This document shows, in pieces, positions 2,236 to 6,452 of a DNA stretch of 23,616 nt. Under the pieces are notes generated by a model that made no database searches, was not told the origin of the DNA, and saw only the letters and a list, made by a program, of their open reading frames with translations. Each line of letters starts with the position of its first letter. Position 1 is the first letter of the stretch. Origin of the DNA: a virus. The translations under genes were made by a program, and so were the position numbers. The stretch covers positions 1-23,616 of IMG/VR virus record IMGVR_UViG_3300042894_001438. One strand, written 5' to 3'.

Positions 2236-2531
2236 CAGACTATCGATATAATGAAGACAAGACTTTAGCGGAACTGAAGTCTTACATTGATGCAACATAC
2301 GGGCAACATTATTCCCGTGATAAATTCCAAGCGACAGAATTCATCATTGATGGTGGACATGGTGAAGGATTCTGTATCGGGAACGTGCTGAAATATGCAC
2401 AAAGGTATGGCAAGAAAGACGGACGTAATCGAAAAGACTTGCTAAAGATTTTACACTATGCTATAATCATGCTACACGTACATGACTTGAATGAAGGAAA
2501 ACAAAATGAAATTAAGCGAATCAACAATTAA
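2232..2531 (+). CDS. DUF3310 family protein
   Basis: A 99-residue protein carrying the DUF3310 core: an FIIDGGHGEGFCIGNVLKYAQRYG region (residues about 37-60) followed by KDGRNRKDLLKILHYAI. DUF3310 proteins are widespread in phages, are sometimes annotated as nucleotide-kinase-like, and have no established function. The start codon overlaps the glycosyltransferase stop (ATGA), suggesting translational coupling. Its last 26 bases overlap the start of the sliding clamp gene, and it contains that gene's likely promoter (2439-2467). Confidence 0.75.
   Translation: MTDYRYNEDKTLAELKSYIDATYGQHYSRDKFQATEFIIDGGHGEGFCIGNVLKYAQRYGKKDGRNRKDLLKILHYAIIMLHVHDLNEGKQNEIKRINN
2439..2467 (+). promoter_or_regulatory. 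extended -10 promoter for the sliding clamp
   Basis: TTGCTA (2439-2444), 17-bp spacer, TATAAT (2462-2467) preceded by the extended -10 TG (2459-2460). It lies inside the DUF3310 gene, 38 bases upstream of the clamp start codon. The same two hexamers with the same spacing and TG recur at 16536-16564. Confidence 0.65.
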
Positions 2532-3177
2532 CATTCTAAAAAACTTTGCTACCATTAATGCAGGTATGCAATTCAAAGAAGGTTCTGTGGTGCGAACTAT
2601 CTCCAAAGGACAGAACGTACTTGGCAAAGCAACAGTAACAGAAAACTTTGAAAAAGATTTTGTCATTTATGACTTGAATCGTTTCTTGTCTCTGTGTGGT
2701 TCTTTGACTGATCCTGAGATTGTTATCAATACCGATGCAAATAATCTCACGGTTAAATCTGGCACATCCAAAACTACATACGGACTTGCAGATGAGTCTA
2801 TGATTGTAGCACCGCCTGCAAAAGAGTTGAAGATTGAAAATGCCGAAGTGAATTTTCGATTGACAAAAGAAGACATGAGCCAAGTATTGAAGTTGTCTGG
2901 CATCTTGGGTCTTCCAAACATTGCAGTCATTGGTGATGGCGCTAGTATCTCTATTGCTACACTTGACGTTAAGAATGATGAGTCTGATAACTTCTCAATC
3001 AAAGTTGGTGAGACTGCATCTAATTTCAAAATGATTTTCAATACAGAAAACTTGAAGATGATTCCTGGAACATATGATGTAGCAATTTCATCTAAAGGTA
3101 TCTCTCACTTCAAACATGCAACCGATTCTGTTGAGTATTGGATTGCTACTGAAGCTGGCTCTAAGTACGAAGGTTAA
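2506..3177 (+). CDS. 45: DNA polymerase sliding clamp (gp45)
   Basis: A 223-residue homologue of T4 gp45 (228 aa), the trimeric ring that tethers gp43 polymerase to DNA and, in T4, also activates late transcription. The N-terminus MKLSESTINILKNFATIN and the downstream pattern (FVIYDLNRFLSLCGSL, SHFKHATDSVEYWIA) match T4-like clamps. I chose the ATG at 2506 over an in-frame ATG at 2491 because MKLS is the family's normal N-terminus and AAGGA (2494-2498) is well placed for it. Genes for the clamp loader and polymerase follow in T4 order. Three TATAAATA late promoters in this window fit a clamp-dependent late transcription system. Confidence 0.92.
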   Translation: MKLSESTINILKNFATINAGMQFKEGSVVRTISKGQNVLGKATVTENFEKDFVIYDLNRFLSLCGSLTDPEIVINTDANNLTVKSGTSKTTYGLADESMIVAPPAKELKIENAEVNFRLTKEDMSQVLKLSGILGLPNIAVIGDGASISIATLDVKNDESDNFSIKVGETASNFKMIFNTENLKMIPGTYDVAISSKGISHFKHATDSVEYWIATEAGSKYEG

Positions 3178-3181
3178 TATT

Positions 3182-3442
3182 ATGAGTAATGTGATTGTTC
3201 CATCCTCTCCAGAGGACCGTAAAAAGATTCTGGATGCACTTGTCGAAATTTCAAACTCACTCACTCGCATTGAAGCAGAACGTGATTTGATTAAAGACAT
3301 TCTTGTTTCGGTTGAAGATAAATTTGAGTTGCCTAAAAAGTACACTCGCAAACTTGCAAAGATTTATCACAAACAAAACTTCACCGAGGTACAACAAGAA
3401 CAAGACGATGTTGAAACCCTTTATGAGAGTGTGGCTAAGTAA
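3182..3442 (+). CDS. dsbA: DsbA-like double-stranded DNA-binding protein
   Basis: An 86-residue helical protein resembling T4 DsbA (89 aa), a dsDNA-binding protein implicated in late gene expression. Shared features are the region around FELPKKYTRKLAKIYHKQNF (T4: a -DGKMFNRLLALYHKDN- segment) and the acidic C-terminus ending in ETLYESVAK (T4: VELYDTVF). I start at the ATG at 3182, because upstream in-frame codons lie inside gp45. AAGG at 3170-3173 precedes it. Placement next to gene 45 fits a role in late transcription. The assignment rests on pattern similarity and length. Confidence 0.7.
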   Translation: MSNVIVPSSPEDRKKILDALVEISNSLTRIEAERDLIKDILVSVEDKFELPKKYTRKLAKIYHKQNFTEVQQEQDDVETLYESVAK

Positions 3443-3444
3443 AG

Positions 3445-5049
3445 ATGAAAACTGACTCAATTGTTGTGTTAGGCGGCGGCTCTGCCGGATGGATGACTGC
3501 CGCAACATTAATTAAAGCATTTCCAAATAAAAAAATAACAGTTGTAGAATCTGAAAATATTCCGATTATTGGTGTTGGTGAATCCACATTGGGACAAATT
3601 AGAAGGTGGACTCATTTCATAGGGTTAGATGAAAAAAGTTTTTTCCCTCATACTAATGCTTCAATTAAAATGAGTATTAAATTCACAGACTTCTATAAAA
3701 AAGATTCGGGATCATTTCATTATCCTTTTGGTGGTCCTATTTCGATAGAAAACAGAAATCCTTATCAGGATTGGCATAGAAAAAAATATTTTTATCCTGA
3801 AACTGAGGTTACAGATTTTACTGAATGTTTATTTTCAGCATCAGCACTTTATACCAATAATAAATTTTCTCTTAATTTAGATGGTAAATTAGATAATTTT
3901 AATCCTAATACAGATTACGCATATCATTTTGATGCGGTTCAATTTTCAAATTGGTTGCGAGAAAATTATTGTTTACCTAAAGGAGTCAATCATATTGTAG
4001 GTACAGTTAAAGATGTTATCACAAATGAAATGGGAATTGAAAAGTTAATTTTAGAAGATGGAACCGAAATAACATCAGATTTATTTGTAGACTGTACTGG
4101 ATTTAAAAGTATGCTTTTGGGTGAAGCACTTAAAGAACCGTTCGAATCTTATTCTGATATGCTACCCAACAATAAAGCATGGGCAACAAGAGTTCCATAT
4201 AAAAACCGTTCCGAAGAACTTGAAGGATATACAAATTGCACAGCCAGACAAAATGGATGGTGTTGGAATATTCCTCTTTGGTCTAGATTAGGAACAGGGT
4301 ATGTTTATTCCGACAAATTCGTAACTAAAGAAACTGCACTAGAAGAATTTAAAGAATATCTAATGTCAGATAAAATGACTATTCCTAGAACAAGAGAAGA
4401 TGTAGATTCTTTTGAATATAAAGAAATTGACATGAGAGTTGGAATTCACAAAAGAACATTTGTGAAAAATGTTGTTGCCATTGGACTTTCTGCTGGATTT
4501 ATTGAACCGCTTGAAAGTAATGGGTTGTTCAGCGTCCATGAATTTTTATTTAGACTTTTAGACATTTTACAACGAGATACAATTAATCAATTTGATAGAG
4601 ACATGTATAATGTTAGTGTCAAGGATTTGTTTGATGGATTTGCTAAATTTGTAGTATTACATTATGCACTATCACATAGAGATGATTCCGAATATTGGAG
4701 AGCAATACAAAATAAGTCATTCGTTGATGCTAAAACAAATGAGCCATATACCCAACACGTTACTAGAGCAGATTGTTTTTATAACATGATTTGGAGATAC
4801 ATGACCAATTGGGGACATACTACAAACGATAATGCAGGTATAACATACATTTCTACGGGAATGAATTTATTTATGGCTAACGACCAACGATTGAAATCCT
4901 ATGAACTTCATGTTAAACCGATAAATGAACTTAAATTGGAAATTGATGAAATGAATAATCTTTGGAATTATAAAAAGGCTGAATGGAAAAAAGTTGCCGA
5001 TTCTAGTCCAACAATTGAAGAATATTTAAAAACAACATTCTACTCCTAA
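3445..5049 (+). CDS. flavin-dependent tryptophan-halogenase-like enzyme
   Basis: A 534-residue FAD-dependent halogenase (PF04820 type). The FAD-binding GGGSAG is at residues 10-15. The catalytic lysine corresponding to PrnA Lys79 is K75 in ASIKMSIKF. The halogenase signature WxWxIP is W272-C-W-N-I-P277. The halide-site loop PLExxG is present as PLESNG (355-360), with Asn where PrnA-type enzymes have Thr. VirX1 of cyanophage Syn10 is a known viral member that prefers iodide, so phage carriage is not unique. Its substrate here is unknown. It needs reduced FAD, presumably from a host reductase. The gene begins two bases after dsbA and interrupts the 45-dsbA-44 cluster. Three sampled 60-base lines are 20-30% GC against about 42% in a gp44 line, and it uses AGA for Arg where gp44 favours CGT, suggesting recent acquisition. 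Confidence 0.93.
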   Translation: MKTDSIVVLGGGSAGWMTAATLIKAFPNKKITVVESENIPIIGVGESTLGQIRRWTHFIGLDEKSFFPHTNASIKMSIKFTDFYKKDSGSFHYPFGGPISIENRNPYQDWHRKKYFYPETEVTDFTECLFSASALYTNNKFSLNLDGKLDNFNPNTDYAYHFDAVQFSNWLRENYCLPKGVNHIVGTVKDVITNEMGIEKLILEDGTEITSDLFVDCTGFKSMLLGEALKEPFESYSDMLPNNKAWATRVPYKNRSEELEGYTNCTARQNGWCWNIPLWSRLGTGYVYSDKFVTKETALEEFKEYLMSDKMTIPRTREDVDSFEYKEIDMRVGIHKRTFVKNVVAIGLSAGFIEPLESNGLFSVHEFLFRLLDILQRDTINQFDRDMYNVSVKDLFDGFAKFVVLHYALSHRDDSEYWRAIQNKSFVDAKTNEPYTQHVTRADCFYNMIWRYMTNWGHTTNDNAGITYISTGMNLFMANDQRLKSYELHVKPINELKLEIDEMNNLWNYKKAEWKKVADSSPTIEEYLKTTFYS

Positions 5050-5057
5050 GTGAACTC

Positions 5058-5086
5058 TTGCATTCTAACATGCAATGTGTTAGAAT
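5058..5086 (+). promoter_or_regulatory. sigma70-type promoter for gene 44
   Basis: TTGCAT (5058-5063), 17-bp spacer, TAGAAT (5081-5086), 29 bases upstream of the gp44 start codon. The spacer and -10 are occupied by the inverted repeat listed next. Weaker than the promoters at 7684 and 15829. Confidence 0.6.
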
Positions 5087-5094
5087 ATATTTTT
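5062..5094 (+). terminator. inverted repeat / probable terminator after the halogenase
   Basis: Perfect 9-bp stem ATTCTAACA (5062-5070) / TGTTAGAAT (5078-5086), 7-base loop, then ATATTTTT. As RNA it is a plausible weak terminator for the halogenase transcript. As DNA it is a dyad inside the gene-44 promoter and could be an operator. Confidence 0.55.
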
Positions 5095-5115
5095 ATGTTA
5101 TGATAAGGTGAACAC

Positions 5116-6054
5116 ATGTTACAAGATTTCTTGTGGGTCGAAAAGTATCGACCAAAAACTGTTGAAGATACAATTCTTCCAACAGACTTAAAGGCAACAT
5201 TCCAACAATTCGTTGACCAAAAGAATGTTCCCAATCTGATTCTTACGGGCGGTCCTGGCGTTGGTAAAACTACTATCGCCAAGGCTATGCTTGAAGAACT
5301 TGGATGTAATTATATTGTTATTAATGGTTCGATGAATGGCAACATCGATACCTTGCGAAATGAAATTAAAAACTTTGCCTCAACTGTATCATTCTCTGGT
5401 GGTCGTAAATATGTTATTCTTGACGAGGCTGATTACCTTAATCCGCAATCTACTCAACCCGCATTACGGAACTTCATGGAAGAGTTTTCTGCTAATTGTG
5501 GTTTTATCCTTACTTGCAACTTTCTTAATCGTATCATCGCCCCTCTCCACAGTAGGTGCTCCGTTGTACATTTTAAGATAAACGCATCAGACAAGCCAAA
5601 ACTTGCTGGTCGTTTTATGAAACGTATGACTGGCATTCTGCAAAAAGAAAATGTAGAATTTGAAGAGAAGGTTGTTGCTGAACTTATTATGAAACACTTT
5701 CCTGATTGGAGGCGTGTTCTCAATGAACTGCAACGTTACTCTGCTACAGGTAAGATCGATACTGGAATTCTTGCAAATATCTCAAGTGACAATTTCAAGT
5801 CATTAGTTGATAGACTGAAAGCAAAAGACTTCACAGGTATGCGTAAATGGGTTGCAGAGAATCTAGACAATGAACCATCAGTATTATTCAAACGAATCTT
5901 TGATAACAGCAATGAATGTTTGAAGCCTGATTCTGTTCCACGTATGGTTCTATTGCTTGCTGATTATCAATACAAGTCTGCATTTGTTGTTGACCAAGAA
6001 ATTAACTTTGTCGCTTTCTTGACGGAAGTGATGGTTGACTGCGAATTCAAATGA
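5116..6054 (+). CDS. 44: sliding-clamp loader large subunit (gp44)
   Basis: A 312-residue AAA+ clamp-loader ATPase homologous to T4 gp44 (319 aa) and cellular RFC small subunits. Residues 7-13 (WVEKYRP) are the classic RFC N-terminal box. Walker A GGPGVGKT is at 45-52, Walker B ILDEAD at 101-106, sensor 1 around LTCNF, and the SRC arginine-finger motif at 146-148. With gp62 it opens gp45 and loads it on primed DNA. AGGTGA (5106-5111) is a good ribosome-binding site. It has its own candidate promoter (5058-5086), which keeps it expressed despite the halogenase insertion upstream. It overlaps the HNH gene by ATGA at 6051-6054. Confidence 0.95.
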   Translation: MLQDFLWVEKYRPKTVEDTILPTDLKATFQQFVDQKNVPNLILTGGPGVGKTTIAKAMLEELGCNYIVINGSMNGNIDTLRNEIKNFASTVSFSGGRKYVILDEADYLNPQSTQPALRNFMEEFSANCGFILTCNFLNRIIAPLHSRCSVVHFKINASDKPKLAGRFMKRMTGILQKENVEFEEKVVAELIMKHFPDWRRVLNELQRYSATGKIDTGILANISSDNFKSLVDRLKAKDFTGMRKWVAENLDNEPSVLFKRIFDNSNECLKPDSVPRMVLLLADYQYKSAFVVDQEINFVAFLTEVMVDCEFK

Positions 6055-6452
6055 GAAATCTTTGGGGCGAAGAAATATTAGTCGAAACAAAAATATGTAG
6101 AGACTGTAAAGAAGAAAAGCCCATAGAGCAGTTTTCAGTTAATCGAAAATTTTATAGAGAAGATTTACCCGAAAAACATTATGCAATTCGCAGACCCGCA
6201 TGTGATTCCTGTAGAAATAAAAAATTAAAAATTGGCAAAGAAAAAAAGTTTTGGCGTAGACCAATAAATCTTACGTGTCCAATATGTCACGATGAAGTTT
6301 TAGGAAGTTATGCTAGACTGGATCATAATCATCACACAGGAAAAATAAGAGGTTGGATATGCGACAATTGCAATACTGCAATAGGAAAATTGAAAGAATC
6401 TTCTGAAGTGATACAACGTGCTATGGAATGGATAAAAAATGACACCGTTTGA
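6051..6452 (+). CDS. endonuclease VII-like HNH endonuclease
   Basis: A 133-residue protein of the recombination endonuclease VII family (PF02945; T4 gp49 catalytic type). Two zinc-binding pairs are visible: C16/C19 with C51/C54, and C76/C79 with C104/C107. The His-Asn-His-type catalytic segment is RLDHNHHTGKIRGWICDNCN (residues 89-108). At this length it lacks the C-terminal dimer/junction-binding part of gp49. It may be a free-standing homing-type endonuclease rather than a Holliday-junction resolvase. It sits between genes 44 and 62, which are adjacent in T4, overlapping gp44 by 4 bases and gp62 by 14. Sampled lines are 33-37% GC with AGA-rich arginine usage, unlike gp44. Family call is strong; biological role is uncertain. 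Confidence 0.85.
   Translation: MRNLWGEEILVETKICRDCKEEKPIEQFSVNRKFYREDLPEKHYAIRRPACDSCRNKKLKIGKEKKFWRRPINLTCPICHDEVLGSYARLDHNHHTGKIRGWICDNCNTAIGKLKESSEVIQRAMEWIKNDTV

Follow-up and report, generated by a model that had tools for sequence, protein, structure and literature searches.

Results

A halogenase gene in the replication cluster

The window (the whole 23,616-nt stretch of DNA that was analysed, a 23.6-kb virus record) is a fragment of a T4-like phage that carries a flavin-dependent halogenase (FDH) gene between dsbA and gene 44, in the order 45-dsbA-halogenase-44-endonuclease VII-like-62-regA-Dps-like-(...)-43 (Table 1). A profile search matched residues 6-428 of its product to PF04820 (E 4e-106, 356 bits, cut-off 21), and PHROG 2928, annotated as 'tryptophan halogenase', matched it with E 2e-143. 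The protein also has the three motifs by which FDHs are defined, GxGxxG, WxWxIP and Fx.Px.Sx.G (PMC8407142). Lys75 is invariant in 67/67 rows of the phage clade described below and in 112 of 113 cellular rows, and Glu357 of the PLE motif is invariant across the 67 phage-clade rows. Profile, motifs, lysine and glutamate together identify the product as an FDH (PF04820, variant A), and the complete gene with K75, WCWNIP and PLESNG that the original prediction had placed between dsbA and gene 44 is present as stated. Reading frames are intact in all full-length halogenase copies, and dN/dS values of 0.09-0.14 between the halogenases of carriers at the dsbA-44 site indicate that the protein is being maintained by purifying selection.

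Table 1. Coordinates of the halogenase gene, its motifs and its flanking features in the window
Feature	Position	Strand	Description	Basis
Gene 45	2509..3177	+	Sliding clamp; start of the 45-dsbA-halogenase run	PHROG 223
dsbA	3182..3442	+	Left flank; its stop codon is the end of the alignment with close empty relatives	PF11126, E 4e-14
2-nt gap	3443..3444	+	AG, dsbA stop to halogenase ATG	Sequence comparison with carriers
FDH ORF	3445..5049	+	ATG to TAA, 534 aa, without internal stop	
GxGxxG codons	3472..3489	+	Dinucleotide-binding motif, GGGSAG, residues 10-15	Translation
Lys75 codon	3667..3669	+	Catalytic lysine, PrnA Lys79 equivalent	Alignment
WxWxIP codons	4258..4275	+	WCWNIP, residues 272-277	Alignment
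Fx.Px.Sx.G codons	4498..4524	+	Tunnel/halide-loop motif, FIEPLESNG, residues 352-360, including Glu357	Alignment
Asn359 codon	4519..4521	+	Phage-clade residue at the cellular Thr position	Alignment
Promoter-like element	5058..5086	+	TTGCAT-17 nt-TAGAAT, upstream of gene 44	Consensus match only
Gene 44	5116..6054	+	Clamp loader; right flank	PHROG 168, E 2e-120

The halogenase would be read together with gene 45 and dsbA, in the window by translational coupling (TAA-AG-ATG); the carriers L002 and L003/L004/L006 have AT-rich leaders with AAGG in place of the 2-nt gap. The promoter-like element upstream of gene 44 came to light only through comparison of relatives and is kept in 29/29 loci checked, carriers and non-carriers together, while a promoter and terminator scan of positions 2400-6200 returned 11 promoter-like sites against 14.4 expected by chance. 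The insertion leaves this putative element intact downstream of the halogenase. The window has no Rfam matches and no tRNAs. None of 13 related contigs, a number of which are fragments, has the photosystem marker PF00124 (psbA/psbD), and nothing therefore supports a cyanobacterial host.

Base composition and codon usage

At 32.0%, the GC content of the halogenase gene differs by -6.3 points from that of the remaining window sequence (38.3%), and its GC3 is 0.206, compared with about 0.33-0.39 in genes 45, 44, 43, 41, 62 and uvsX. Its codon usage departs furthest of all window genes (z 11.1), followed by an endonuclease-VII-like ORF at 6051-6452 (z 5.0). The original prediction of a low-GC, AGA-rich gene was right in direction and in the arginine codons, 16 of 21 of which are AGA, and overstated the extent, since 500-nt windows inside the gene have 29-33% GC rather than 20-30%. 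That prediction also took low GC as a sign of recent gain, which we reject as proof because in 50 of 60 other phage loci, too, the halogenase has a lower GC content than the DNA around it (mean over the 60 loci -3.0 points), among which the window's deficit lies at the 17th percentile. We accordingly treat base composition as weak support for a foreign origin.

The dsbA-gene 44 junction in relatives

Halogenase, gene 44 and dsbA served as queries to collect relatives, and junctions were counted where dsbA was at least 90% identical. Among the distinct close-relative junctions, 53 are empty and four, with the window excluded, hold the halogenase; one apparent further insert (L271) turned out to be an empty junction in which gene 44 is frameshifted. 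The empty junction that had been predicted for related phages is thereby found, and the gene is far from being a fixture of this locus. At empty junctions the dsbA stop is followed by about 65 nt leading to gene 44, and this clean intergenic sequence is common to all of them, none of which retains any trace of a halogenase. The window is 98.6% identical over 3.4 kb to the empty relatives L082/L083, in an alignment that ends exactly at the dsbA stop and resumes at or just past the halogenase stop. Close relatives therefore show an unoccupied site whose flanks are collinear with the window as far as the point of insertion, as expected of a recently exchanged accessory gene.

A second contrast is closer still. 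Over the 2,784 nt that lead up to the site, L002, which has the gene, and L304, which lacks it, share 99.86% identity. On the gene-44 side, over about 120 nt, L002 is 98.2% identical to L083 versus 93.4% to L304, a hint from that short stretch that its halogenase may have come together with the gene-44-side flank. Beyond the window itself, the halogenase occupies the same junction in four contigs from four differently numbered IMG/VR datasets.

The halogenase and backbone trees were both built by quick searches without bootstraps. In the backbone tree (DUF3310, gene 45, dsbA and gene 44) the carriers are scattered (4/65 rows), and well-supported branches force at least three changes of presence or absence. 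All halogenases at the site fall into a single clade (support 100) with three allele groups that lie pS 0.26-0.32 apart, one of them made up of L003, L004 and L006; the carrier backbones differ by pS 0.26-0.42 for the window versus L002/L004. Carriers have three different 5' leaders, and the 3' ends of the insert are alike. At least three phage sub-lineages carry this one halogenase lineage at the site, and each of them has a close relative that lacks the gene. The state changes and the empty sites together indicate that the halogenase is mobile cargo. Of the recent gain that had been proposed, the gain (or gain and loss) of an accessory gene stands on the empty junctions, and the recency does not, because allele groups this far apart indicate that the gene has been at the dsbA-44 site for some time.

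The search for a donor came up empty: among copies at other sites, even the nearest (L005) is only about 70% identical. The record of the relative L109 has two halogenases elsewhere, of which one falls in a distant clade and was dismissed as the source, and the other is broken into two matches. The comparison revealed no mechanism of insertion.

A phage clade of halogenases and its halide-loop asparagine

The best PDB match of the window halogenase is VirX1 (6qgm, E 2.8e-102). We modelled the protein with AlphaFold2 from 21 aligned sequences (mean pLDDT 85.7, pTM 0.86). Of the superpositions listed for this model, the one on VirX1 is the longest and tightest (1.9 A over 511 residues); by Z score (about 44-46) the model places VirX1 roughly level with PrnA-, RebH-, PyrH- and SttH-type enzymes. 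In the halogenase tree, the window enzyme falls with VirX1 inside a phage clade of 58 rows (support 100) that has one non-viral row, L179. VirX1, S-CREM1 and the second copy of S-RIM44 form a sub-clade (support 99), and the window enzyme falls elsewhere. Kinship with VirX1 is therefore borne out at the level of the phage clade by PDB match, tree and superposition.

Searched in shortened forms, the Trp4 tryptophan-binding motif of groups A or B (PMC8269204) is absent from the window protein and from all 67 phage-clade rows, and present in 11 of 113 cellular rows. The label 'tryptophan halogenase', in the sense of PrnA, RebH or PyrH, is unsupported for a protein that lacks this motif. Its absence and the tightest superposition being on VirX1 suggest that the substrate is probably not free tryptophan and is some other aromatic, either a host metabolite or an aromatic side chain.

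The original prediction drew attention to an asparagine in place of the halide-loop threonine. Asn359 is there as described; it is no peculiarity of this enzyme, since 59 of 67 phage-clade enzymes share it (Thr in seven, Ser in one), in a sample that over-represents the window's relatives, the scan having been run with window peptides. The 113 cellular relatives have Thr in 111, Ser in one and Ala in one, and Asn in none. The pattern takes two changes on the halogenase tree, and we read Asn359 from these alignments as the mark of a large phage clade. Among isolates, Thr occupies the loop position in VirX1, S-CREM1, the second S-RIM44 enzyme and Sf-FP1, and Asn in Sf-CH11, S-B64, the partner halogenase of VirX1 in Syn10 and the first S-RIM44 enzyme. 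VirX1 prefers iodide (PMC8407142). Because VirX1 itself has Thr, that preference cannot be tied to the Asn residue, which gives no reason to transfer it to the window enzyme. The halide loop (residues 349-361) is modelled at pLDDT below 50, and we therefore make no structural claim on Asn359.

Genomic settings of related halogenases

In most isolates examined, the genes around the related halogenase are structural, tail-fibre or neck genes, often accompanied by 2OG-Fe(II) oxygenases, and freshwater-type viral contigs have the same association. Other settings include a place beside gene 46 and upstream of gene 45 (S-B64), a place beside psbA (S-MbCM6), the tRNA/talC region (Syn1) and a place beside DNA ligase (Campylobacter phage CP21). 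The family thus occurs in many genomic places, and the replication-region site is unusual and has precedent.

The cyanophages Syn10, S-RIM44 and P-RSM6 have two overlapping halogenase-like genes in tandem (L162:4488-7593, L163:4512-7623 and L333:1925-5081). In the Syn10 and S-RIM44 pairs, the halide-loop residue is Asn in one enzyme and Thr in its partner. The non-viral member of the clade (L179:4986-6587, 51% identical, PLESNG) lies in a bacterial MAG contig among chromosomal-type genes (AMP-ligase-like, RND-pump-like), which suggests either a phage-to-bacterium transfer or a binning effect.

Discussion

We propose that this gene probably encodes a working FADH2-dependent halogenase of a large aquatic-phage FDH clade to which VirX1 also belongs, carried as mobile cargo at the dsbA-gene 44 junction in a genus of T4-like phages. 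By analogy with the family, a flavin reductase, presumably the host's, would supply FADH2, the enzyme would make hypohalous acid beside FAD, and Lys75 with Glu357 at the tunnel end would pass the halogen to an electron-rich ring. Phage halogenases had been described by 2010 (PMC2984593) and have been reviewed since (PMC10452541, PMC8407142), with halogenases in 20 of 153 cyanophage genomes surveyed (PMC10452541). New here are the insertion site, the near-isogenic presence and absence, and the count that marks Asn as a phage-clade residue.

The simplest history would be a single insertion from another phage at the dsbA-gene 44 junction, followed by spread and loss among relatives through homologous recombination in the conserved dsbA and gene 44 flanks; we assign no direction to any one of these transfers or losses. 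A halogenase already at the site in the ancestor of the genus and deleted by most relatives would also account for a single clade of site halogenases, for insert 3' ends that are alike in all carriers, and for allele distances similar to those of the carrier backbones, as under vertical descent among carriers. We judge such an ancestral residence unlikely, because the carriers are so scattered that three gains suffice where many more losses would be needed, and because the empty sites are uniformly clean. That a halogenase of another phage was misjoined to the replication cluster during assembly might be suspected on the grounds that all sequences are metagenome contigs, several under 8 kb. 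The recurrence of one junction in the window and in contigs of four datasets, in three allele groups that differ this much, makes an artefact of that kind extremely improbable.

What the enzyme does for the phage admits more than one answer. Its targets may be aromatic side chains on the structural proteins of the phage; it would then belong to one functional set with 2OG-Fe(II) oxygenases and tail-fibre genes, and the replication site would be a neutral landing place. The company that its relatives keep in viral contigs and isolates favours such virion decoration, as do the large substrates that VirX1 takes through an open active site (PMC8407142) and a 2OG-Fe(II) oxygenase at the regA junction of the close relative L108. 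We nevertheless find this doubtful, given that the window gene stands alone, away from the late cassette, in a gene 45-dsbA run expected to be early or middle, and that near-identical phages without the gene do not need it for making virions. A non-catalytic or decaying passenger that drifts and confers nothing would fit the patchy presence and the low codon adaptation; with intact frames, invariant catalytic residues and the dN/dS values given above, it is very hard to credit. A bolder scenario, which we consider quite unlikely, holds that the Thr-to-Asn change defines a large phage-specific clade with altered halide or substrate use, and that in the window's genus the enzyme left the late structural cassette for the replication operon, would act early on a host metabolite, and would be kept in coexisting carriers and non-carriers by fluctuating selection.

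Our preferred reading, of a working enzyme as mobile cargo, can be set beside systems already described. VirX1 of cyanophage Syn10, for which we draw on reviews, is likewise a phage FDH with the same motifs, about 36-37% identical over the full length, and shares with the window enzyme a phage-only clade. The window enzyme differs in lying outside the VirX1 sub-clade and in having Asn rather than Thr in the loop, and its gene is in a replication operon, whereas that of VirX1 is beside tail genes. The closest isolates are the Synechococcus phages Sf-CH11 and S-B64/S-H35 (47.6% and 44.0% identity), both with the loop Asn. S-B64 also has its halogenase in the replication region, although at another junction and in another tree branch, and Sf-CH11, unlike the window, has it in a structural/2OG-oxygenase cassette. 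PrnA, RebH, PyrH and SttH share the fold and the catalytic motifs with the window enzyme, yet form a separate clade with Thr in the cellular halide loop and differ from it in the matter of Trp4.

The halogenase also resembles the free-standing homing endonucleases of T4-like phages and their hot spots, in that HNH, GIY-YIG and other small ORFs come and go at the gene-44 junctions of relatives; the halogenase itself is not an endonuclease. Homing endonucleases carry flanking DNA along by co-conversion of flanks (PMC2988022), and by analogy we raise the hypothesis that homing-type nucleases may have helped to move the halogenase.

A wild pair of phages 99.86% identical beside the site that differ by a gene under purifying selection is a natural presence/absence contrast, one that could link the halogenase with a particular host, season or chemical product. 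The Asn shared across the clade, in turn, poses a single-residue question common to the window enzyme and VirX1.

More generally, relatives have hot spots at the junctions that flank gene 44, with HNH (L117) and GIY-YIG (L329) genes and leader-bearing proteins (L110, L125). At the dsbA-44 junction itself, the more distant L110, L112, L116, L125-L127 and L329 encode a protein of 115-128 aa that bears a twin-arginine-like leader (RRxFF/KRSFLRGAG) and matches nothing in Pfam. Between genes 44 and 62, almost every sub-lineage has a small ORF of its own, or none at all (L082, L085, L089, L106, L107 and L125 compared). The endonuclease-VII-like ORF is found there in the window (6051-6452), L083, L095 and L103, and the other ORFs encode 143-239 aa, have no Pfam matches and are in some cases nuclease-like by eye. 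At the regA junction, where the window has its Dps-like gene, the oxygenase of L108 (L108:2231-2848, PF13759, E 4e-20) is another enzyme of the usual late cassette within the replication cluster, and L118 has a similar ORF between regA and orf8035. Two further families are repeatedly neighbours of halogenases in viral contigs, a small membrane-like one of about 94 aa in 20 loci (for example L018:5052-5333), which has no match, and a 240-aa protein (PHROG 7084, weak DUF6065) in 15 loci (for example L017:8962-9684).
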